From NCBI RefSeq assembly GCF_014901205.1, contig NZ_JACNMU010000003.1:372001-436000 (forward strand): a DNA stretch of 64,000 nt, in the 5' to 3' direction. A program made the translations under genes and the position numbers. This stretch comes from Meridianimarinicoccus sp. MJW13 (lineage in GTDB: Bacteria; Pseudomonadota; Alphaproteobacteria; Rhodobacterales; Rhodobacteraceae). Shown in pieces: positions 26,372 to 64,000 of the stretch. Numbering within the stretch: position 1 is the stretch's first letter; each line of letters starts with the position of its first letter. A model generated the notes under the pieces. That model did no database searches, was not told where the DNA came from, and saw only the letters and a list, made by a program, of their open reading frames with translations.

Positions 26372-26479
26372 GGCCGCTCCTGTTTGCTTGGGGGGTCTGC
26401 CGGTGATTGACGCAATTTACCGGAATGCGCAATCATCACCGTGCTCCTTCCTGCCGCAGCCTGTCGTTTCCACTGGCAT

Positions 26480-26493
26480 TGATAGCGCTAACG
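26480..26493. promoter_or_regulatory. Candidate CceR-like operator upstream of edd
   Basis: TGATAGCGCTAACG contains the perfect 8-bp palindrome TAGCGCTA and matches nine of ten fixed positions of TGNTANCGNTANCA. It lies 43 bp before the edd start. The same 13-bp core occurs in inverted orientation before the second gap gene. CceR of Rhodobacter sphaeroides is a LacI-family regulator of the Entner-Doudoroff genes. Confidence 0.6.
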
Positions 26494-26535
26494 GCTTATA
26501 CGACGCGAGAATTCGCCAAGACGCCGGGAGGTCCC

Positions 26536-28353
26536 ATGGCCCTACATCCAATCGTCGAGAAAGTCACAGACCGGATCCGTTCCCGCAGTGACAAGCCCCG
26601 CAACGCCTATCTGGCCCGGATGCGTGCTGCCGCCGAGGATGGCCCGGCGCGCGCCCATTTGACCTGCGGGAACCAGGCCCATGCCTATGCGGCGATGGGC
26701 GACCAGAAGGCCACGCTGGCCGGAGCGCGGGCGCCCAACCTGGGCATCGTCACCGCCTATAACGACATGCTGTCGGCGCATCAGCCGTTCGAAACCTTTC
26801 CCGATCTGATCCGCCGCACGGCGCAGACGGCCGGGGCCACAGCCCAGGTGGCTGGCGGCGTTCCGGCCATGTGTGACGGTGTCACGCAAGGTCAACCCGG
26901 CATGGAGCTGTCGCTGTTTTCGCGCGATGTGATCGCCATGGCGGCGGGCGTCGCGCTGTCGCACAACACCTATGACGCGGCGGCCTATCTGGGCGTCTGC
27001 GACAAGATCGTGCCGGGGCTGATCATGGCCGCGGCCACCTTCGGCCATATTCCGGCGATCTTCATCCCCGCCGGTCCCATGACCAGCGGTCTGCCCAACG
27101 ATGAAAAGGCCCGTGTCCGCAACCAGTTCGCCGCGGGCGAAGTGGGCCGCGACAAGCTGATGGAGGCCGAGATGGCCTCGTACCACGGGCCGGGCACCTG
27201 CACCTTCTACGGCACCGCCAACACCAACCAGATGCTGATGGAGTTCATGGGCCTGCACCTGCCCGGCTCCAGTTTCGTCAATCCGAACACGCCGCTGCGC
27301 GAGGCGCTGACCGTCGCCGCGACCGAGCGGGCGCTGGCAATCACAGCCCTTGGCAACGCCTATACCCCGACCTGCGACGTGCTGGACGAGCGCGCGTTCG
27401 TCAACGGCATCGTCGGGCTGATGGCCACGGGCGGTTCGACCAACCTTGTGATTCACCTGCCCGCCATGGCACGGGCCGCCGGTGTGATTCTGGATCTGGA
27501 AGATTTCGCGGAATTGTCCGAGATCACGCCGCTGCTGGCCAAGGTCTATCCCAACGGTCTGGCAGACGTGAACCACTTCCACGCTGCGGGCGGGCTGGGC
27601 TACATGATCGGCCAGCTGCTGGAAGCCGGGTTGCTGCACGACGACACCAAGACCGTCGCCGGCGACGGGCTGGAGCTTTACACGCAAGAGCCCAAGCTCA
27701 GCGACGGCACTCTGACCTGGGACAAGGGCGCGGGCACAAGCCTGAACGACAAGATCCTGCGTCCTGCCACCGATCCGTTCCAGACATCCGGCGGGCTGAA
27801 GCAGCTTGCAGGAAACCTCGGGCGTGGTGTCATGAAGGTTTCGGCCGTGGCGCCAGAACGCCGCGTCATCGAAGCCCGCGCACGGGTGTTCCAGGACCAG
27901 GGATCGGTCAAGGCCGCCTTCCAGGCAGGTGAATTCACCGAGGACACCATTGTTGTCGTTCGCTTCCAGGGTCCCAAGTCCAACGGCATGCCGGAACTGC
28001 ACAACCTGACCCCGACCCTGAGCGTGCTGCAGGATCGCGGGCTGAAAGTGGCGCTGGTCACCGATGGCCGCATGTCGGGGGCATCCGGCAAGGTGCCCGC
28101 CTGCATCCATGTCACGCCCGAAGCCACCGAAGGCGGTCTGCTGGCGCGCATCGCCGATGGCGACGTGATCCGCGTCGATGCCGAGGCCGGGGTGCTGGAG
28201 GTGGTCACCGAAGGCGTTGCCGATCGGCCTGCTGTGGAACCCGACCTTTCGGCCAATGGTTTCGGGATGGGCCGCGAGTTGTTTTCCGCCTTCCGCGCCA
28301 ATGTTGGACCCGCTACATCCGGGGCCAGTGTGGCTCTGCCTGCCGACAGCTAA
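26536..28353 (+). CDS. edd: 6-phosphogluconate dehydratase
   Basis: 605 residues, full length, from an ATG preceded by GGGAGG. IlvD/Edd-family features are [38 protein letters not shown], and [20 protein letters not shown], with the cysteines for the Fe-S cluster, and [19 protein letters not shown] near the C-terminus. It dehydrates 6-phosphogluconate to KDPG in the Entner-Doudoroff pathway. eda follows after 14 bp, so they form an operon. A CceR-like operator precedes it. Confidence 0.97.
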
Positions 28354-28367
28354 TCGAAGGACACGAC

Positions 28368-29012
28368 ATGACCCCCCAAATCGCAAGCGAACGTCTGATC
28401 GCCGTGGCCCGCAAGGCGCCGATCATCCCTGTTCTGGTGGTCTCGGATGCCGGACGCGCCGCCGATCTGGCCCAGGCCCTGGTCGCCGGTGGTCTTTATG
28501 CGCTGGAAGTCACCCTGCGCACGCCGCAGGCGCTGGACGCGATGCGCGCCATGTCGGATGTGCCGGGCGCCATCGTCGGCGCGGGCACCGTGCTGACGCC
28601 CGATGACGCGCGCCGCGCCCAGGACGCGGGCGCAACTTTCGCAGTCTCGCCCGGATCAACCGACAAGGTGCTGGATGTCTGCGAGGCCATCGATCTGGCC
28701 ATGCTGCCCGGCGCCGCCACTGCGACCGAAGCGCTGTACCTGCTGGAACGCGGCTACAGCTTCCAAAAGTTCTTCCCGGCCGAGGCCATCGGCGGCGCAC
28801 CGGCACTGAAATCTCTGGCTGGCCCCCTGCCGCAGATCGCCTTCTGTCCGACCGGCGGTGTCTCGCTGGCCAATGCCAACACCTATCTGTCGCTGCCCAA
28901 CACGGTCTGCGCCGGAGGCTCGTGGGTGGCCCCGGCCGATCTGGTGGCAAAGGGCGACTGGGACGGCATCACCAAGCTGGCCGCCGAAGCCGCAGCCCTG
29001 GAAGTCAGCTAG
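28368..29012 (+). CDS. eda: KHG/KDPG aldolase
   Basis: 214 residues with an AAGGA ribosome site. The class I aldolase residues are in place: the catalytic glutamate in YALEVTLRTP and the Schiff-base lysine in YSFQKFFPAEA. It splits KDPG into pyruvate and glyceraldehyde-3-phosphate, completing the pathway started by Edd. Its last 8 bases overlap the end of a convergent small gene. Confidence 0.97.
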   Translation: MTPQIASERLIAVARKAPIIPVLVVSDAGRAADLAQALVAGGLYALEVTLRTPQALDAMRAMSDVPGAIVGAGTVLTPDDARRAQDAGATFAVSPGSTDKVLDVCEAIDLAMLPGAATATEALYLLERGYSFQKFFPAEAIGGAPALKSLAGPLPQIAFCPTGGVSLANANTYLSLPNTVCAGGSWVAPADLVAKGDWDGITKLAAEAAALEVS

Positions 29013-55402: not shown

Positions 55403-55415
55403 CGGAGAAATTCAT

Positions 55416-57092
55416 ATGCAAACTTCCGGAACCCAAACCGGCATGGCGGGGCGCGCGCTTGCGCTTGGGGTCGCCTTTGCCCTTGGCGGACTCGGAGCGT
55501 CGCAAGCCCTTGCGCAGGACGATCCTGCCGGCAGCAAGCCCAACATCCTCCTGATCGTCTCGGACGATACCGGCTGGGGCGATCTCGGTCCCTATCTGGG
55601 CGGTGCCGCGCGCGGCATGCCGACGCCGAACTTCGACAAGCTGGCCGAAGAAGGCATGTTCTTCACCAACTTCTACGGCCAGCCCTCGTGCACACCGGGC
55701 CGCGCGGCGATGCAGACCGGGCGCAACCCGAACCGGTCCGGCATGACCACCGTGGCCTTCCAGGGCCAGGGCGGCGGTCTGCCCGAAGCGGAATGGACGC
55801 TGGCTTCGGTGCTGAAAGAAGCCGGGTACAAGACCTATTTCACTGGCAAGTGGCACCTGGGCGAGTCTGACTATGCGCTGCCCAACGCGCAGGGCTATGA
55901 CCAGATGAAATACGCGTTCCTCTATCATCTAAACGCCTATACCTACCCCGATCCGGCCTGGCACAAGAACATGGGCGACGACCTGCGCGCCGAGTTCGCC
56001 AAGATCACCAAGGGGTCGCTGTCCGGCAATGCCGGCGAAGAGGTCACCGAGGATTTCAAGGTGATCGGCGACGCGGACACGCCGGATCAGGGCAAGGTCG
56101 GCATCAAATATCTCGACGCCTATGTCGAAAAGGCCGCCTATGAGTTCCTTGAAGACGCCGCCAAGGATCCGGACACGCCGTTCTTCATCAACGTCAACTT
56201 CATGAAGAACCACCAGCCGAACCTGCCGCACCCGGATTTCGAGGGCAAATCGATCTCGAAGTCGCCCTATGCAGATGCGGTGGTCGAACTTGACGCGCGC
56301 GTCGGCAACGTCCTGAACAAGCTGGACGAGCTTGGCCTCAAGGACAACACCGTCGTGTTCTACACGGTCGACAACGGCGCCTGGCAGGATGTCTACCCGG
56401 ACAGCGGTTACACTCCGTTCCGCAGCACCAAGGGCACCGACCGCGAGGGCGGCAGCCGGGTTCCGGCCGTGGTGCGCTGGCCTGCGCATGTTCCGGCAGG
56501 CACCAAGAGCGACGACATTCTCGGCGGTCTCGACCTGATGGCAACCTTCGCAGCCCTGGCCGATCAGACGCTGCCCGAGAAAGATCGCGCCGGCGAGCCG
56601 ATCATCTTCGACAGCCACGACATGACCCCGGTCTGGACCGGCAAGGGCAAGTCTGACCGCAACGAGTGGTTCTACTTCACCGAGAACGAACTAACTCCGG
56701 GTGCTGTCCGCGTCGACAACTTCAAGTACGTGTTCAACCTGCGCGGCGACAATGGCGCCACCACCGGTGGCCTTGCGGTCGATACCAACCTGGGCTGGAA
56801 AGGCGCCGAGAAATACGTCGCCACTGTTCCGCAGGTCTTTGACCTGCTGGCCGACCCGCAGGAACGCTACGACATCTTCATGACCACCTTCACCGAGAGC
56901 ACCTGGGCAATGGTCCCGGCCAACGAGGCGATGCAGGAGATCATGAAAAGCTATGTCGAGTATCCGCCGCGCAAGCTGCAGAGCGAGACCTATACCGGTC
57001 CGATCACGCTGAGCGCGTATCAGCGGTTCAAGCATGTTCGTGACGAACTTGCCAAGGATGGTGTCAGCATCGGCCTGCCGACCGGCAACTGA
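55416..57092 (+). CDS. Secreted type I sulfatase
   Basis: 558 residues from an ATG with GGAG upstream. A long signal peptide ends near QALAQ (residue 34). The sulfatase core has metal ligands in IVSDDTGWGDLG (D50, D51) and the formylglycine motif CTPGR (C92-R96). KWHLGE and the second metal site VDNGAW lie further on. C92 needs conversion to formylglycine by a maturase (FGE or anSME), and neither is in this window. It should hydrolyse a sulfate ester in the periplasm or outside the cell; the substrate is unknown. A secreted HAD phosphatase follows. Confidence 0.9.
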   Translation: MQTSGTQTGMAGRALALGVAFALGGLGASQALAQDDPAGSKPNILLIVSDDTGWGDLGPYLGGAARGMPTPNFDKLAEEGMFFTNFYGQPSCTPGRAAMQTGRNPNRSGMTTVAFQGQGGGLPEAEWTLASVLKEAGYKTYFTGKWHLGESDYALPNAQGYDQMKYAFLYHLNAYTYPDPAWHKNMGDDLRAEFAKITKGSLSGNAGEEVTEDFKVIGDADTPDQGKVGIKYLDAYVEKAAYEFLEDAAKDPDTPFFINVNFMKNHQPNLPHPDFEGKSISKSPYADAVVELDARVGNVLNKLDELGLKDNTVVFYTVDNGAWQDVYPDSGYTPFRSTKGTDREGGSRVPAVVRWPAHVPAGTKSDDILGGLDLMATFAALADQTLPEKDRAGEPIIFDSHDMTPVWTGKGKSDRNEWFYFTENELTPGAVRVDNFKYVFNLRGDNGATTGGLAVDTNLGWKGAEKYVATVPQVFDLLADPQERYDIFMTTFTESTWAMVPANEAMQEIMKSYVEYPPRKLQSETYTGPITLSAYQRFKHVRDELAKDGVSIGLPTGN

Positions 57093-57183: not shown

Positions 57184-58164
57184 ATGAAATTTCTTGCCTC
57201 CACCCTTGCCGTATCCCTGGCATTCGCGCTTCCCGCGATTGCCCAGGACGATCCCCTGCCATCGTGGAACGACGGCGACACCAAAAGCGCCATCATCGCG
57301 TTCGTCGAGAGCGTGACCGACGACGACAGCGACACCTTTGTCGACGAAGACGCACGGATCGCGACCTTCGACAATGACGGCACGCTTTGGGTCGAGCAGC
57401 CGATGTACACCCAGCTTGCCTTCGCTTTCGACCGGGTCAAGGCCATGGCCGACGACCACCCGGAATGGAAGACGACCCAGCCGTTCCAGGCCGTTCTGGA
57501 AGGCGACATGAAAGCGCTTGGCGAAGCCGGTGATAAGGGTCTGCTGGAAATCGTCGCCGCGACCCATTCCGGCATGTCGACCGAAGATTTCGCGTCGATC
57601 ACCACCGATTGGCTGGCCACCGCGAAACACCCGAAATTCGACCGGCCCTATACCGAGCTGATCTACCAGCCGATGCTGGAGCTGCTCGACTACCTGCGGG
57701 ACAATGATTTCGAGACCTTCATCGTTTCCGGCGGCGGTATCGAGTTCATGCGCCCCTGGACCGAAGAAGTCTATGACATCCCGCCGCAACAGGTCGTCGG
57801 ATCGTCGATCACCACCGAGTTCAAGATGGTGGATGGCAAGCCGGTGCTGATGCGCACCGACAAGATCGACTTCATCGACGACAAGGCCGGAAAGCCCGTC
57901 GGCATCAATTCCCATATCGGCCGCCGACCTATTGCCGCCTTCGGCAATTCCGACGGCGATTTCGAGATGCTGCAATACACCACCATCGGCGCCGATGGCC
58001 CGCGTCTTGGCGCCTTCGTGCACCACACCGACGCCGACCGCGAATACGCCTATGACCGCGACACGCATTTTGGCAAACTCGACAAGGGCCTTGATGCAGC
58101 TGCCGAAAACGGCTGGCTTCTGATCGACATGAAGAACGACTGGAAAACGATCTTCCCGAACTGA
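57184..58164 (+). CDS. Secreted HAD-superfamily phosphatase
   Basis: 326 residues with a signal peptide (MKFLASTLAVSLAFALPAIA). HAD motif I is ATFDNDGTLWV (D63 nucleophile, D65 acid/base), motif II lies in FIVSGGG, and motif IV in AFGNSDGDFEM. The cap segment lies between motifs I and II. It removes phosphate from small molecules in the periplasm. It is probably co-expressed with the sulfatase about 90 bp upstream, suggesting joint scavenging of sulfated and phosphorylated compounds. Confidence 0.88.
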   Translation: MKFLASTLAVSLAFALPAIAQDDPLPSWNDGDTKSAIIAFVESVTDDDSDTFVDEDARIATFDNDGTLWVEQPMYTQLAFAFDRVKAMADDHPEWKTTQPFQAVLEGDMKALGEAGDKGLLEIVAATHSGMSTEDFASITTDWLATAKHPKFDRPYTELIYQPMLELLDYLRDNDFETFIVSGGGIEFMRPWTEEVYDIPPQQVVGSSITTEFKMVDGKPVLMRTDKIDFIDDKAGKPVGINSHIGRRPIAAFGNSDGDFEMLQYTTIGADGPRLGAFVHHTDADREYAYDRDTHFGKLDKGLDAAAENGWLLIDMKNDWKTIFPN

Positions 58165-58676: not shown

Positions 58677-59411
58677 ATGACAACACCCAAACTCTCTGGC
58701 AACCGGCGCGGATTTCTTGCCTTGGGCGGCGCTGTGGCCCTGTTGGCCGGGGCGCCCGCGTTGTGGCGGGTCTTCGCGCCCTCCCTGTCGGCCCCGCCGC
58801 ATCCGTCGGTGCCGGGGTTCTTCCAGTTGGAACAGGCGGCGGTGACCGGGGCCTTCGATCCGCTGGTGGGCCTTCAGGATGGCCCCCGGATCGAGGCGGC
58901 CGAGATCCCCGATATCTGCGCCGCGCTGTTCCGCACACCGCGTGACGGGCGCGTGCCGCTGGCGTTCTTCACCGACATCAACTGCACCTATTGCCGAACC
59001 ATGGAGCCGTGGATCACCGCGCTGGACCCGGCAACCGTGGCTCTGACCGTGCATGATCTGCCATTGCTGGGCGCGGGTTCGGTGGCGGCGGCGCGGGCCA
59101 TCCTGGCGGCAGAGTACCAGGGAGCCTCCTCGGCGATGCGCACCCGGCTGCATCGCACCCGTTTTCAGCCCGACCCGGCCTATCTGACCGCGCTGGCCGA
59201 AGGCCTGGGGCTGGACGCCCCACGGCTGTTGCAGGACATGGACCGCCCCGAGGTGACCGCGCGCATCGCCACCAGCCTTGGGTTGGCGGCCCGCTTCCAG
59301 ATCCCCGGCACACCGGCGCTGGTGGTGGGGTCGGTGCTGGCCGTGGGCAACCGCAGCAAGGCCGAGGTTCAGGCCCTGATCGATCAGGCGGACATCGGCG
59401 TCTGCACCTGA
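58677..59411 (+). CDS. DsbA-family thiol-disulfide protein
   Basis: 244 residues. An N-terminal signal-anchor (RRGFLALGGAVALLAGAPAL, with a twin arginine) exports it. The thioredoxin-fold active site is CTYC (C103, C106) in FFTDINCTYCRTMEP, and the cis-proline loop is IPGTPALVVG. The C-terminal half is helical as in DsbA-like proteins. The partner is unknown. Its last 28 bases overlap the end of the convergent Gfo/Idh gene. Confidence 0.85.
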   Translation: MTTPKLSGNRRGFLALGGAVALLAGAPALWRVFAPSLSAPPHPSVPGFFQLEQAAVTGAFDPLVGLQDGPRIEAAEIPDICAALFRTPRDGRVPLAFFTDINCTYCRTMEPWITALDPATVALTVHDLPLLGAGSVAAARAILAAEYQGASSAMRTRLHRTRFQPDPAYLTALAEGLGLDAPRLLQDMDRPEVTARIATSLGLAARFQIPGTPALVVGSVLAVGNRSKAEVQALIDQADIGVCT

Positions 59412-60517
59412 GGCGCGTCAGTGGGCAAACCGGACGCCACCGCCTGTCCCTCAAGCGCCGAGCGTTGCGCCGCCTGCCCCATCAGCACCGCGCGCATCCC
59501 GTCGTCGAAGCCGACCTCGACCGTTCCCTGTCCGCGCAGTACCTGCAGGAACTTCTGATGCTGGTAGAAGGTGGAGCCGTTGTGATCGCCCGCGTCCAGC
59601 AGCGCCTCGTCGACCGGGATCTCCAGCATCTGCGGCCGCTTGGGACGGCGCGGCGATACGATCACCCGTGACACCGGCGGCGGGCCAAGGTCGGCAGGCC
59701 AGAACCGGGTCGGCCCCGGCACCTTGGCCTCGATCTTGCCCAGCGGACCGAGGGCGGTGATCTCTTCCTGAAACTCGGAGCCTTCCGCGAACATGCACAA
59801 TTCCAGCATCCCGCGCGCGCCGTTGGCGAAATCCACGATCACATAGGCATTGTCCCAGATGTCGGGCGGGCCCGCGGCCGGGTGTTCGGCCTTGTGGTTC
59901 ACGTCCTGCGCGCCCGAGGCCATGATCCGCACCGGCTCGGCCCCCACCACCAGCCGCATCAGGTCGAAGAAATGGCAGCATTTCTCGACCAGCGTGCCAC
60001 CGGTGCGGGCGTTGTAACGGTTCCAGCCGCCGACCTTGTCGAGAAACGGAAAGCGATGTTCCCGGATGGTCAGCATCCGCACACCGCCGGTAACCTCGGC
60101 CACCTTGTCGATCAGCGCCGCGATGGGCGGCATGTAGCGATACTCCATCGCCACCCAGATCGGTGCCGGATAGCGCGCGTGCAGCGCCGCCAGCCGGGCC
60201 GCATCGTCAGGATCGGTGAACAGCGGCTTTTCCACCAGCAGCGGCAGCGGCCGGGTGGCGGCGATCTGCTCCATCTGCGCCACGTGGCAGTCGTTGGGGC
60301 TGACGATCACCAGTGCATCCAGATCCGGCAGGGCCAGCAGATCGGCCAGATCGGCCACCGCCACGGCCCCCGGCACCAGCGCCTGCGCAGCACCGCGCAT
60401 CCCCGCATCGGGATCGCACAATGCGGCCACCTCGGCACCGTCCAGAATCGCGATGTTGCGGATATGCTCCTGCCCCATCATCCCGCATCCGATGATGCCA
60501 TAGCGCATTGGCGTCAT
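59384..60517 (-). CDS. Gfo/Idh/MocA-family protein, candidate NAD-dependent sulfoquinovosidase
   Basis: 377 residues from an ATG with GGAGAG upstream. The N-terminal Rossmann fold has GIIGCGMMG (7-15) and the lysine motif VEKPLF (E96-P98). The C-terminal alpha/beta domain follows, with GGTLVEKCCHFFDL. The family includes sugar dehydrogenases and, in families GH109 and GH188, NAD-dependent glycosidases; GH188 members are sulfoquinovosidases that occur in sulfoquinovose gene clusters. It lies 10 bp after the gntR gene and faces the LLM-AKR-flavin reductase operon, which is why GH188 is proposed. An ordinary sugar dehydrogenase remains possible. Confidence 0.8.
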   Translation of the reverse strand: MTPMRYGIIGCGMMGQEHIRNIAILDGAEVAALCDPDAGMRGAAQALVPGAVAVADLADLLALPDLDALVIVSPNDCHVAQMEQIAATRPLPLLVEKPLFTDPDDAARLAALHARYPAPIWVAMEYRYMPPIAALIDKVAEVTGGVRMLTIREHRFPFLDKVGGWNRYNARTGGTLVEKCCHFFDLMRLVVGAEPVRIMASGAQDVNHKAEHPAAGPPDIWDNAYVIVDFANGARGMLELCMFAEGSEFQEEITALGPLGKIEAKVPGPTRFWPADLGPPPVSRVIVSPRRPKRPQMLEIPVDEALLDAGDHNGSTFYQHQKFLQVLRGQGTVEVGFDDGMRAVLMGQAAQRSALEGQAVASGLPTDAPQVQTPMSA

Positions 60518-60527
60518 GCCTGCTCTC

Positions 60528-61226
60528 CTAGCTGTTGCGCGCCACATAGCGGGCGCGGTCGTGGTTGAACCAGGTGCGAGAGACCTCGGGCAGTGCCCCG
60601 TCGCTGGTGCGACTCTGGCGCAGGACGTGGCCGCAGACCGCGCCCTCGTCACAGCCGGTGTCCTGCCCCCAACCGGGCATGGCATCGACGCCGATCCGAT
60701 CCTCGATGGCGGTGATCCAAAGCCCAAGGGTTTCCCGGTAGTAAAGGTACAGAGATTCCGACAACGCCTGCGCATCCAGCCGGTCGGTGATCTCCCCGTC
60801 GAGCCAGATCTCCTCTGCTGCAACGGCGCGGTCATCCAGATAGCGCAGGCGGCGAATGCGGTGCGCGGTGTCCGAGCCGCCAAAATCCGGCAGATCGGCA
60901 GGCTTGGGCAGGCGCGTCACCGACAGCACGCGGGCCCGTGGCAGCCCGCCGCCGTCCAGCCGTTCCAGCCGGAAGAAGGCATAGATCGACCCGCCCTGGT
61001 CAGTGTCGAGAATATAGTTCCCCGACCCCTGCCGACGCTCCAGAATGCCTTGGCGCTCCAGCCGTGCCAGCGCCTTGCGCAGGGTGCCGACGGCAATGCC
61101 CATGCCATCCGCCATCTGCCGTTCGGGCGGCAGGCGATCGCCGACGCGCAAGCGTCCGGCCGTGATTTCACGCACCAGAAACTCGGCAATTTGCAGATAC
61201 TTGGGCAGTGCTGCACGATCTGCCAC
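60528..61226 (-). CDS. GntR-family regulator (HutC subfamily)
   Basis: 232 residues. The winged helix is at about 8-72 (YLQIAEFLVREITAGRLRVG, then LRKALARLERQGILERRQGS), followed by a UTRA ligand-binding domain (about 85-225). It is divergent from the monooxygenase operon with 82 bp between starts, in which a perfect 14-bp palindrome sits. It probably represses the operon until a sugar-type inducer binds. In the known sulfo-SMO cluster of Agrobacterium a transcriptional regulator (SmoD) also accompanies the enzymes. Confidence 0.9.
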   Translation of the reverse strand: MADRAALPKYLQIAEFLVREITAGRLRVGDRLPPERQMADGMGIAVGTLRKALARLERQGILERRQGSGNYILDTDQGGSIYAFFRLERLDGGGLPRARVLSVTRLPKPADLPDFGGSDTAHRIRRLRYLDDRAVAAEEIWLDGEITDRLDAQALSESLYLYYRETLGLWITAIEDRIGVDAMPGWGQDTGCDEGAVCGHVLRQSRTSDGALPEVSRTWFNHDRARYVARNS

Positions 61227-61253
61227 GCCATCCCCCTGTCGAATTGATTTACT

Positions 61254-61267
61254 ATTGATGCATCAAT
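61254..61267. promoter_or_regulatory. Palindromic operator between gntR and the monooxygenase operon
   Basis: ATTGATGCATCAAT is a perfect 14-bp palindrome lying 28 bp from the GntR start codon and 41 bp from the monooxygenase start. Its position fits a site through which one GntR dimer controls both directions. Confidence 0.65.
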
Positions 61268-61308
61268 TGCGCGATGCTAGGCAAGAAGAAACAACCGGGG
61301 GGAAGTCG

Positions 61309-62463
61309 ATGACGGTGGTGCCAGTCACATCCGCAGATCTTGATGCATCCGAGGTGTCGTGGTTCTCGGCCCTGTGTTCGGACGACTACCGCTTGCTGGG
61401 GGTGCCCGAGGGCGATCTGCGGTCCAGCTTTGCCCATTGTTCATCGATCCTGAAGGAAGCCGAAGCGCAAGGCTTCCGCAACATCCTGTGCCCGTCCTCC
61501 TACCAGGTCGGGCAGGACACGCTCAGCTTCGTGGCGGGGTGCGCGCCGATCTCCGACCGCATCAACATGCTGGCCGCCGTGCGCTGCGGCGAGATGCAAC
61601 CGATCATGCTGGCCCGCACCATCGCCACGCTGGACCACATGTTGCAGGGCCGCCTGACGGTGAACATCATCAGCAGCGATTTTCCCGGCCAGAAAGAAGA
61701 CAGCAGTTTTCGTTACCAGCGTTCCCGCGAGGTGGTGGAGATCCTGAAACAAGCGTGGACGCAGGACCAGATCACCTACAAGGGGCAGGTCTATGACTTC
61801 GAGGGGCTGACCACCGATCCCGCGAAACCCTATCAGACCGGCGGGCCGCTGCTGTATTTCGGCGGGTACTCTCCCGACGCGCTGGACCTCTGCGGCCAGC
61901 ATTGCGACGTCTACCTGATGTGGCCGGAGCCCAGGGACCAGCTGGCCGAACGCATGAAGGCGGTCAACGCCGTGGCCGAGAAATACGACCGCACGCTGGA
62001 CTATGGCCTGCGGGTCCACACCATCGTGCGCGACACCGAAGCCGAGGCCAAGGAATACGCCGAACACCTGGTGTCGAAACTGGATGACGAATACGGCAAG
62101 CTGATCCGCGAACGGGCGCATGATTCCGGCTCGCTGGGCGTTTCGCACCAGGCCCGCGCCCGCGAGCTGGCCGACAAGTTCGGCTATGTGGAGCCGCACC
62201 TGTGGACCGGCATCGGTCGCGCCCGGTCGGGTTGCGGTGCGGCCCTGGTCGGATCCGTCGACCAGGTGCTGAGCGAGATCGAGGCCTATCGCAAGATGGG
62301 CATGCGCGCCTTCATCTTCTCGGGCTACCCGCATCTGGAAGAATGCAGGATATTCGGGGAAAAGGTTCTACCTCATCTCAAGACCTGTTCGCTGCCCCAC
62401 GCCTATGGCCGGGTGCCGGACAAGACCCCGATGACCCCTTTAGGAGCCGGAGAGCGCAAGTAA
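61309..62463 (+). CDS. LLM-class flavin-dependent monooxygenase, SsuD/SmoC-like
   Basis: 384 residues. Bacterial luciferase-like fold, nearest to alkanesulfonate monooxygenase SsuD: CPSSYQVGQDTLSFVAGCAP, ARTIATLDHMLQGRLTVNII, YQRSREVVEILKQAWTQD, GGPLLYFGGYSPDAL, and TGIGRARSGCGAALVG. These enzymes use reduced FMN and oxygen to cut a C-S bond, releasing sulfite and an aldehyde. With an AKR, a flavin reductase and a GntR regulator next to it, it matches SmoC, the sulfoquinovose monooxygenase that gives 6-oxo-glucose. Its stop overlaps the AKR start by one base. Confidence 0.85.
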   Translation: MTVVPVTSADLDASEVSWFSALCSDDYRLLGVPEGDLRSSFAHCSSILKEAEAQGFRNILCPSSYQVGQDTLSFVAGCAPISDRINMLAAVRCGEMQPIMLARTIATLDHMLQGRLTVNIISSDFPGQKEDSSFRYQRSREVVEILKQAWTQDQITYKGQVYDFEGLTTDPAKPYQTGGPLLYFGGYSPDALDLCGQHCDVYLMWPEPRDQLAERMKAVNAVAEKYDRTLDYGLRVHTIVRDTEAEAKEYAEHLVSKLDDEYGKLIRERAHDSGSLGVSHQARARELADKFGYVEPHLWTGIGRARSGCGAALVGSVDQVLSEIEAYRKMGMRAFIFSGYPHLEECRIFGEKVLPHLKTCSLPHAYGRVPDKTPMTPLGAGERK

Positions 62464-63356
62464 TGGATCGTGTTTCCCTGTCCCCGACGCTGGACCTGTC
62501 GCGCATCGTCTATGGCATGTGGCGTCTGGCCGATGATGACAACATCTCGCCCGCCCATGTGCAGGCCAAGATCGAAGCCTGTCTTGCGCAGGGCATCACC
62601 AGTTTCGATCAGGCCGACATCTATGGCGGCTACACCTCGGAAGCGGTGCTGGGCAGCGCCCTGCGGGCCGCCCCGGCGCTGCGCGACCAGATGCAGATCA
62701 TCACCAAATGCGGAATTGTGGCCCCGGCGGGACGCTATGCCGACGCGCGGGTGAAATACTATGACACCTCGCGGGCGCACATCGAGAAATCGGTGGAGTA
62801 TTCCCTGCGCGAGATGGAAATCGAGCATATCGATCTGCTGCTGATCCACCGCCCCGATCCCTTCATGGATGCCGATGAAACCGGGGCTGTGCTGGATGAC
62901 ATGGTGGCCTCGGGCAAGGTCGGGCATGTGGGCGTGTCGAACTTCCTGCCGGCGGATATGAACCTGCTGCAATCGCGCATGTCCTCGACAATGGTCACCA
63001 ACCAGATCGAGATCAGCCTTCTGGCCTCGGACCCTTTCCGCAATGGCGCGTTGGCCACGCTGATGCAGGCGGGCGTGGCGACGATGGCCTGGTCGCCGCT
63101 GGCCGGTGGTGCCTTGTTCGCCCCTGAAAACAGCGCCTTGCACGACAAACTTGCAACATTCGGCGAAAAGCATGACGTCGATGCCAGTGCCGTGGCGGTG
63201 GCCTGGCTGCTGGCGCATCCCGCCCGCATCCTTCCGGTCATGGGCACCAACAGCCTGGCACGGATTGCACGTTTGTCCGAGGCGTGCAAAGTGGAGATGT
63301 CGCGGGAAGACTGGTTCGACTTCTACACAGCGGCCCTGGGACAAGAGGTGCCCTGA
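62463..63356 (+). CDS. Aldo-keto reductase, SmoB-like (6-oxo-glucose reductase candidate)
   Basis: 297 residues, one-base start/stop overlap with the monooxygenase gene. The AKR tetrad is visible: D49 and Y54 in SFDQADIYGGY, K82 in IITKCG, H129 in LLLIHRPDP. In the sulfo-SMO pathway SmoB reduces 6-oxo-glucose to glucose with NADPH. The coupling to the monooxygenase makes this the best guess, although the AKR family is broad. Glucose would then enter the Entner-Doudoroff route. Confidence 0.87.
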   Translation: MDRVSLSPTLDLSRIVYGMWRLADDDNISPAHVQAKIEACLAQGITSFDQADIYGGYTSEAVLGSALRAAPALRDQMQIITKCGIVAPAGRYADARVKYYDTSRAHIEKSVEYSLREMEIEHIDLLLIHRPDPFMDADETGAVLDDMVASGKVGHVGVSNFLPADMNLLQSRMSSTMVTNQIEISLLASDPFRNGALATLMQAGVATMAWSPLAGGALFAPENSALHDKLATFGEKHDVDASAVAVAWLLAHPARILPVMGTNSLARIARLSEACKVEMSREDWFDFYTAALGQEVP

Positions 63357-63358
63357 GC

Positions 63359-63874
63359 ATGGACGGGAGCAGCGCGATTTCGATAGAGACATTCCAGCCC
63401 GCACCCGATACGCAACGGGCCTATCGCACCGCGCTTGGCTCGTTCGGCACCGGCGTCACGGTCATCACCACGACCACCGACCTTGGCCCCTGCGCCATCA
63501 CCGTCAACAGTTTCGCCAGCGTCTCGCTGGACCCGGCCCTTGTGCTGTGGTCGGTGGACAAGGCTTCGGACCGTTGCGCCGCCTTTGCCGAAGCCAGCCA
63601 CAGCGCGATTCACGTCCTGGAACGCAGCCAGCAGGATCTGGCATGGCGTTTTGCCCGCGACGGCTTTGATTTCGCGCAGACCGACTGGCAGCCCGACGGC
63701 AATGGTGTGCCCTGTCTGGACGGTTGCCTGACACGCTTTGATTGCGAAACCGTGGCCACCCATGATGGCGGGGATCACATCATCCTCGTGTCGAAAGTGT
63801 CCAGCGTCTCGGCGCGCCACGGCCTGCCCCTGCTGTTCGTGCAGGGCAAATTCGGAAGTTTCTCCACCTCCTGA
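63359..63874 (+). CDS. FMN reductase-type flavin reductase, SmoA-like
   Basis: 171 residues. Flavin-reductase-like FMN-binding split barrel: YRTALGSFGTGVTVITT, then ITVNSFASVSLDPALVLWSV, with HGLPLLFVQGKFGSF at the end. It supplies reduced FMN to the monooxygenase of the same operon; the start codon lies 2 bases after the AKR stop. A two-component monooxygenase system is therefore complete. Confidence 0.9.
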   Translation: MDGSSAISIETFQPAPDTQRAYRTALGSFGTGVTVITTTTDLGPCAITVNSFASVSLDPALVLWSVDKASDRCAAFAEASHSAIHVLERSQQDLAWRFARDGFDFAQTDWQPDGNGVPCLDGCLTRFDCETVATHDGGDHIILVSKVSSVSARHGLPLLFVQGKFGSFSTS

Positions 63875-63934
63875 GCATACGGGAGGGGAGTGCAAGGGTC
63901 GCAACGTCGGCCCGATCAGGGAGGATCACGGCGG

Positions 63935-64000
63935 ATGCCCATTCTGCTGGCGCTGTTGCGCCCGTTCGAGATCGTCAACACCGCCATGGGGCGGCTGGGC
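63935..64000 (+). CDS. Start of a probable TRAP small permease gene, cut by window edge
   Basis: Open from an ATG with GGGAGGAT upstream to the last base; 22 codons visible. The start MPILLALLRPFEIVNTAMGR is hydrophobic with a charged turn, as in DctQ proteins. It lies 60 bp after the flavin reductase on the same strand, so it probably belongs to the operon. With so few residues the family is a guess. Confidence 0.4.
   Translation, partial: MPILLALLRPFEIVNTAMGRLG

Follow-up and report, generated by a model that had tools for sequence, protein, structure and literature searches.

A probable sulfoquinovose monooxygenase gene cluster of Meridianimarinicoccus with a predicted GH188-type sulfoquinovosidase and a probable TRAP importer for sulfoquinovose or its glyceride

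The closest described relative of the locus reported here is the sulfoquinovose (SQ) monooxygenase pathway (sulfo-SMO, also sulfo-ASMO) of Agrobacterium tumefaciens, in which SmoC, SmoB and a flavin reductase are encoded in one operon, and whose smo cluster has a sulfoquinovosidase (SQase) of family GH31. The Novosphingobium counterparts are named SquD and SquF. Agrobacterium also has a characterised ATP-binding cassette (ABC) importer for sulfoquinovosyl glycerol (SQGro) (PMC9594981). SQ is produced at ten billion tons a year, and Roseobacters have been named as important marine users of it (PMC10755693). GH188 genes, encoding SqgA enzymes, occur in sulfo-SMO clusters and, among Roseobacters, in nearly all clusters of this type (Kaur et al. 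2023, PMC10755693); they are also reported in clusters of the sulfoglycolytic Embden-Meyerhof-Parnas (sulfo-EMP) route (PMC10755693). In the 64,000-nucleotide stretch of Meridianimarinicoccus sp. MJW13 DNA analysed here, which we call the window (C14:372001-436000, on contig C14 of a 4.0-Mb genome that is 99.99% complete), lies a locus that, judged from sequence, very probably forms a complete, functional and widespread sulfolytic sulfo-SMO module for SQ and, by extension, SQGro. It differs from the Agrobacterium system in having a GH188 enzyme and a tripartite ATP-independent periplasmic (TRAP) importer where Agrobacterium uses a GH31 SQase and an ABC importer. It shares sequence type, SQ contacts and sulfo-SMO pairing with the GH188 SqgA of Roseobacter clusters (PMC10755693), from which it differs in nothing essential. 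We put the probability that the enzymes are of the sulfo-SMO/GH188 kind and that the TRAP importer carries SQ and/or SQGro at roughly 0.87. The enzymes are of a known, common kind; the likely TRAP importer is the less usual part.

The gene content and family membership of the locus can be read directly. All genes lie where a preliminary description of the window had placed them, and their Pfam families agree with it (LLM monooxygenase 170 bits, aldo-keto reductase 181, flavin reductase 128, Gfo/Idh C-terminal domain 82). The 1- and 2-base junctions given there are exact: smoC and smoB overlap by 1 base, the final base of the smoC TAA being the A of the smoB ATG, and 2 bases lie between smoB and smoA, whose ATG is at 63359. 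The DctQ start suspected at the right edge is real, at 63935, and the contig continues into dctQ-dctM-dctP, encoded together (Pfam 77, 403 and 176 bits), which supplies both the DctM and the DctP genes that were to be looked for there. The sqgA and gntR genes are on the minus strand, facing smoC-smoB-smoA-dctQ on the plus strand; sqgA is co-directional with gntR, not with smoC, and gntR is divergent from smoC. The features are as follows, with numbering beyond the right edge continuing that of the window (a position in locus L002 is the window position minus 57000):

59384-60508, minus strand: sqgA, GH188-type NAD-dependent sulfoquinovosidase with a Gfo/Idh/MocA fold, 374 residues, predicted from phmmer and residue alignment.
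60528-61226, minus strand: gntR, regulator of the GntR-UTRA type (Pfam GntR 63 bits, UTRA 74 bits).
61254-61267, strand-neutral: candidate GntR operator, the palindrome ATTGATGCATCAAT within the gntR-smoC gap.
61309-62463, plus strand: smoC, putative flavin-dependent sulfoquinovose monooxygenase (phmmer 713/706 bits to 7olf/7oh2).
62463-63356, plus strand: smoB, aldo-keto reductase predicted to convert 6-dehydroglucose to glucose (phmmer 411 bits to 7bby).
63359-63874, plus strand: smoA, predicted NAD(P)H:flavin reductase partner of smoC (Pfam Flavin_Reduct 128 bits).
63935-64591, plus strand: dctQ, 218 residues, with only 63935-64000 inside the window and the rest on the contig.
64591-65880, plus strand: dctM, beyond the window edge on the same contig.
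65910-66965, plus strand: dctP, 351 residues, beyond the window edge, its start signal-peptide-like by eye.

The monooxygenase had been proposed to be of the sulfo-SMO type, and comparison with solved proteins bears this out: phmmer gives SmoC 713 bits to 7olf and 706 to 7oh2, against 176-189 bits to the alkanesulfonate monooxygenases 7jv3, 1nqk and 1m41 and 95 bits to dimethylsulfone monooxygenase. We take 7oh2 and 7olf to be SmoC, and 7bby to be SmoB, of the Agrobacterium/Rhizobium sulfo-SMO pathway, which thus holds the nearest solved relatives. SmoB scores 411 bits to 7bby and 236 to the next different protein, while SmoA scores 182 bits with a FerA-type NCBIfam model, below its cut-off of 260. 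The SmoB and SmoC homologues are adjacent, with the flavin reductase SmoA beside them, and fall within the 10-gene window by which sulfo-SMO clusters have been recognised (PMC13372026). SmoC could instead be a general alkanesulfonate monooxygenase of the SsuD/MsuD or SfnG type that serves sulfur scavenging, as it belongs to the same superfamily as SsuD, obtains 231.5 bits with the NCBIfam SsuD model (TIGR03565), and has as its two nearest PDB entries proteins that their depositors named methanesulfonate sulfonatase and alkanesulfonate monooxygenase. These names are generic, however, and SmoC lies below the equivalog cut-offs of both the SsuD model (518.2) and the SfnG model (TIGR04021, 147.4 bits against 382.95). 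On these curated cut-offs, together with the PDB scores, an SsuD or SfnG identity was rejected; with SmoB beside all 80 of the smoC loci in named genomes described below, and SqgA beside 78, we consider the general enzyme very improbable. SmoC is the sole PF00296 match of the genome (E 0.001).

For the Gfo/Idh protein, a role as GH188-type sulfoquinovosidase had been suggested, and the sulfonate-binding residues of that family are indeed kept. SqgA scores 353 bits to 8qc2 and 351 bits to 8qc3, which are FlSqgA and ArSqgA (PMC10755693); its closest solved relative, 8zn9 (517 bits), is named merely a putative oxidoreductase. Alignment with ArSqgA leaves 177 of 353 aligned residues identical (50%). 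When the SQ-contact features reported for GH188 (PMC10755693) are traced through this alignment, the sulfonate-binding residues R166, L170 (through its backbone) and K172 of ArSqgA correspond to R152, L156 and K158 of the window protein, and the other SQ contacts K107, Y136, E189, H193 and H321 to K94, Y123, E175, H179 and H309. Glu163, also named in PMC10755693, aligns with a valine in the chain numbering used, and the adjoining Glu164 is kept as E150. A search for GH31 (PF01055, E 0.001) gave 0 matches in the genome while 6 of 14 control genomes were positive, which leaves SqgA as the sole SQase candidate seen. The alternative, that this protein is a plain sugar dehydrogenase acting on, for example, inositol or SQ, takes its support from the best NCBIfam score, which is to inositol 2-dehydrogenase (TIGR04380); this score is 104.5 bits against a cut-off of 355, in a library without a GH188 model. 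Given the failed cut-off, the similarity to proven GH188 enzymes and the full set of kept SQ contacts, a dehydrogenase-only role was rejected, and with GH31 absent from the genome we give it very little credence.

We propose that DctP would bind the sulfonated sugar and/or its glycoside in the periplasm and that DctQM would import this cargo using an ion gradient. Cytoplasmic SqgA, with NAD+ as a catalytic cofactor, would oxidise and then re-reduce C3, converting SQGro to SQ and glycerol. With reduced flavin provided by SmoA, SmoC and O2 would cleave the C-S bond to give sulfite and 6-dehydroglucose, which SmoB would reduce to glucose. The glucose could feed the edd-eda route via 6-phosphogluconate.

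The preliminary description had called the joining of these parts new. As regards GH188 and sulfo-SMO this does not hold, because the pairing was published in 2023 for Roseobacters (Kaur et al., PMC10755693); the TRAP part, on the other hand, is absent from the literature searched. Importers named for SQ or SQGro are of the ABC type (PMC9594981, PMC12421959), and the excerpts of PMC12890257 and PMC13372026 do not mention TRAP for SQ. In the main text of PMC10755693, to which this check was confined, none of the terms TRAP, transporter, importer and permease appears, and PMC10507020 and PMC6386719 treat TRAP systems for taurine, sulfolactate and isethionate, with SQ solely in their reference lists. 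Two further papers contain both terms, of which PMC11236759 is unrelated and PMC11659671 concerns an ion trap. We thus found no TRAP importer assigned to SQ or SQGro in the literature searched, although Roseobacter SQ studies outside the search, or the supplement of PMC10755693, may show TRAP genes. If the assignment is true, this would be the first secondary, ion-driven importer for a sulfosugar glycoside, as the importers described there as characterised are all of the ABC type. It would close a gap on SQ uptake in Roseobacters, on which the same literature makes no statement, and would provide a marker gene for SQ use that is independent of the catabolic route.

To place the importer, we surveyed 295 genomes of the family for SmoC (E 1e-100), SqgA (1e-80) and DctP (1e-60). 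The DctP set comprises 100 genomes with a protein at least 68% identical to that of the window, three of 103 (38-51%) having been set aside. SmoC occurs in 124 of the 295 genomes, SqgA in 145 and DctP in 100; SqgA is found in 121 of the 124 SmoC genomes and 96 of the 100 DctP genomes, and SmoC in 76 of the latter. Fisher p values, with kinship ignored, are 2e-17 for SmoC with DctP and 5e-35 for SqgA with DctP. Outside the family DctP is rare: of 289 genomes drawn from the class, 9 have a match at 1e-100, and four of these 9 belong to the family; three of the five non-family loci were examined, two being of the SMO type and one of the sulfo-EMP type.

Among the family genomes, 24 have DctP without SmoC. 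All 24 of their dctP loci were fetched, with up to 16 kb around the TRAP genes, and 17 carry in the same stretch sqgA (43-58% identical to that of the window), a FucI-like isomerase and a PfkB kinase, joined in 16 of these 17 by a LacD/DeoC-type aldolase. We infer that this set is a route of the sulfo-EMP type; in a GH188 cluster already published for such a route, a fucose isomerase is found together with a kinase and an aldolase (PMC11465081). These sulfo-EMP/EMP2-type sets of related genomes carry an orthologous TRAP importer and sqgA, and differ from the window cluster, beside which no such set lies, in their other catabolic enzymes (isomerase, kinase, aldolase). The importer, directly observed to be common to two enzymatically different gene sets, would in both cases be expected to carry SQ or its glyceride, the substrate that both would share. 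On a tree of 70 DctP rows, built with a quick method and with weak deep branches, at least 6 changes are required to account for the 46 SMO and 15 EMP labels, and the starred branches force 4 changes (SMO) and 3 (EMP) when the 5 rows labelled as other are counted too. Because of these changes, the TRAP importer has probably moved between catabolic routes more than once. The backing that comes from this sharing between two gene sets makes the TRAP assignment the part most worth testing.

The residues of the receptor and the location of SqgA also bear on the cargo. R153, R174 and N214 of DctP align with R156, R177 and N217 of IseP, a DctP-family receptor of Oleidesulfovibrio alaskensis in which this Arg-Arg-Asn clamp holds the sulfonate of isethionate (PMC11668362), and they are kept in all 70 rows. 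The two receptors differ in that they match at only 102 bits, that the isethionate contact H244 of IseP aligns with A242, and that the cargo predicted here is a C6 sulfosugar. As the clamp is also kept in outgroup DctP proteins, it permits rather than proves a sulfonate. SqgA, belonging to an NAD+-dependent family, starts directly at the Rossmann fold with no signal peptide seen by eye; this suggests cytoplasmic hydrolysis, so that the glycoside should itself be imported. A variant in which the TRAP system imports free SQ alone and not SQGro would also fit the gene content, as does SQGro, and would be compatible with the proposed assignment, but in view of the cytoplasmic SqgA we regard it as rather unlikely. 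A search of the genome for the ABC receptor of the type found in Marinovum (see below) gave 0 matches at E 1e-10; it was made without a positive control, so that this empty result is uninformative by itself.

It is possible, though unlikely, that the enzymes form a sulfo-SMO module while the TRAP importer merely adjoins them and carries something else, for instance a sugar acid, a glycerol-linked acid or a different sulfonate. Carboxylates are the best-known ligands of TRAP receptors, and published work describes TRAP systems for sulfonates other than SQ, namely isethionate (PMC11668362) and, putatively, taurine and sulfolactate (PMC10507020); the clamp residues are not specific. Furthermore, no TRAP is seen in 37 of the 80 named smoC loci, in 5 of these solely through a contig end, and in two loci the fetched stretch holds TRAP and a PhyH-type gene but no SQ gene. 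Set against this are the presence of SqgA in 96 of the 100 genomes with this DctP, and the pairing of TRAP with two different enzyme sets that share sqgA and whose labels alternate on the DctP tree, for which the common substrate would be SQ or SQGro. We therefore prefer SQ and/or SQGro as the cargo. Several further observations weigh against the reading as a whole. The clamp is general to TRAP receptors and present in two outgroup DctP proteins; for one of these, from Pacificitalea (50%), no SQ gene is annotated within 8 kb. Seven of the 24 loci lack the sulfo-EMP set, five having SMO cluster parts but no smoC and two the TRAP and PhyH-type genes. The aldolase scores 141 bits to tagatose-bisphosphate aldolases as opposed to 66 to sulfofructosephosphate aldolases, its best solved relative being 8tnf (306 bits), labelled only DUF2090, and a phmmer search with the FucI-like isomerase found no solved relative. 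The co-occurrence counts take no account of relatedness; 21 of the 80 named smoC loci lack both this TRAP and the Marinovum-type ABC receptor, and at least one of them, L021, shows another ABC-like set, with receptor- and permease-like frames after smoA. Finally, no sulfite exporter was seen beside the cluster by eye in the listed frames; some relatives have a gene of the sulfate-exporter family directly after dctP, where none was seen by eye in this genome.

Some DctP loci depart from both arrangements. The PhyH-family (PF05721) oxygenase gene lies near an SQ-linked TRAP system at L129:6913-7605 and L124:1633-2379, the two on which the family was tested. It is present in 12 of the 295 family genomes (E 1e-50; further genomes are G056, G082, G099, G140, G180, G201 and G227), of which 11 have DctP and 7 have SmoC, and in 9 genomes no more than about 5 kb of the same contig separates it from dctP; its solved relatives gave no substrate. 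Six genomes (G040, G048, G126, G143, G226 and G201; loci L126, L127, L133, L134, L163 and L167) retain genes of an SMO-type cluster (TRAP, SqgA, SmoB or SmoA) with no SmoC at E 1e-100. In L134 smoC, smoB and smoA are all missing and gntR, an operator-like palindrome and TRAP remain; in G201 the SmoC match is just 53 residues long, and G126 carries, on a different contig, sqgA in a set of the sulfo-EMP type. At G209:C16:58630-65810 a 49% DctP match with two internal stops lies about 5 kb from a 54% SqgA match, also with internal stops, and from this pair the SQ linkage of DctP may extend below the 68% line.

Gene order is kept well beyond the window. We examined the best 80 of at least 554 confirmed smoC loci in named genomes, matching neighbours at E 1e-8, and found SmoB beside smoC in all 80, GntR in 79, SqgA in 78 and SmoA in 64; for one of the two loci that miss SqgA (L053), the contig begins 0.2 kb before smoC. 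As for importers, 43 loci have TRAP, 11 the Marinovum-type ABC receptor and 21 neither, and in 5 the contig ends. The dct genes of all 43 TRAP loci follow directly in the same orientation, and their dctQ match begins 2.54-2.76 kb after the smoC start. Since 21 loci carry neither importer, TRAP is not obligatory for smoC loci, yet this class is not necessarily importer-less, given that L021, L030 and L063 encode an ATPase that shares 49-51% identity with that of Marinovum. Among plasmids, 29 records have SmoC, 11 of them at 77% identity or more; 10 of these 11 carry DctP at 70% or more, and all 10 plasmid records with such a DctP hold SmoC of at least 77%. In the eleventh, pMaD9 of Marinovum, the place of TRAP is taken by an ABC importer, accompanied by an esterase and a second Gfo/Idh gene. 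The gene order with TRAP also occurs in Rhizobium sp. SL42.

Phylogenies of SmoC and DctP were made with a quick method. On the SmoC tree, which has many weak branches, the five rows nearest the window SmoC all come from ABC-type loci, whereas the window DctP is nearest those of TRAP loci of Tateyamaria, Ruegeria and Pelagimonas on the DctP tree, as expected if importers were swapped. TRAP versus ABC needs 5 changes on the SmoC tree, or 18 once 'none' is counted as a state of its own. It is likely that DctPQM and its orthologues (at least 68% identity in DctP) form a distinct TRAP clade dedicated to SQ and SQGro in Rhodobacterales and some other Alphaproteobacteria, swapped as a unit between sulfo-SMO and sulfo-EMP-type routes and alternating with an ABC importer on the sulfo-SMO side.

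The ABC-type SMO clusters often have, close to the ABC genes, a second Gfo/Idh gene and one that is esterase-like (L118:11566-13579, and L004, L010, L023, L043 and L068); at a guess, the esterase might act on an acylated sulfolipid. A Rieske ring-hydroxylating oxygenase gene lies beside some SMO clusters (L017:6803-7990, by Pfam), with Rieske-like frames, recognised by similar sequence starts, also in L054, L072 and L133.

Expression of smoC would be repressed by the GntR protein from the candidate operator, with the inducer, like the operator, a matter of prediction. The gntR-smoC gap of 82 bases contains the palindrome ATTGATGCATCAAT, the core of which, TTGATGCATCAA at 61255-61266, has its end 44 bases upstream of the smoC ATG as counted in the scan. 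We compared 84 gntR-smoC regions (the window, 78 named loci and 5 plasmid loci), with ends taken from protein matches rather than mapped starts. The motif TTGAT-N4-ATCAA is exact in 29 of them, against a mean of 0.02 in dinucleotide shuffles, and 27 of the 29 sites are 45-52 bases upstream of the smoC start; when spacers of 2-4 and at most one mismatch are allowed it occurs in 46 of the 84 regions, against 2.3 in shuffles, all of these counts being inflated because the loci are related. The window site is a two-base-shorter form and the sole such site in the 64 kb, but 5 of 100 window shuffles also hold one. A gapless perfect palindrome as the shared operator was rejected, since the 14-nt form is found only in the window, the remaining exact sites having 4 bases between their half-sites. 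Scans for sigma-70 promoters (1 found, 1.4 expected) and terminators (4 found, 4.6 expected) did not exceed expectation.

Glucose released by the pathway had been suggested to pass into an edd-eda route in the same window, and both genes are there:

26407-28353, plus strand: edd (948 bits against a cut-off of 708).
28368-29012, plus strand: eda (234 bits against a cut-off of 156).

They are compatible with the smo locus but not physically linked to it, as they lie about 30 kb from sqgA and edd is one of five PF00920 matches in the genome. The fate of the sulfite is likewise a matter of prediction; the sulfite-oxidase fold PF00174 has three matches on other contigs, the best at 176 bits. Inspection by eye of the listed frames beyond dctP revealed no additional SQ gene, a family-library search of those genes not having been made. 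To the left, 1.2-4 kb from sqgA, lie a sulfatase-like gene (window 55410-57092; 109 bits with an arylsulfatase model, cut-off 481) and, after it, a HAD-IB phosphatase-like gene (57184-58164; 29 bits, cut-off 45), and the starts of both appear secretion-signal-like by eye.

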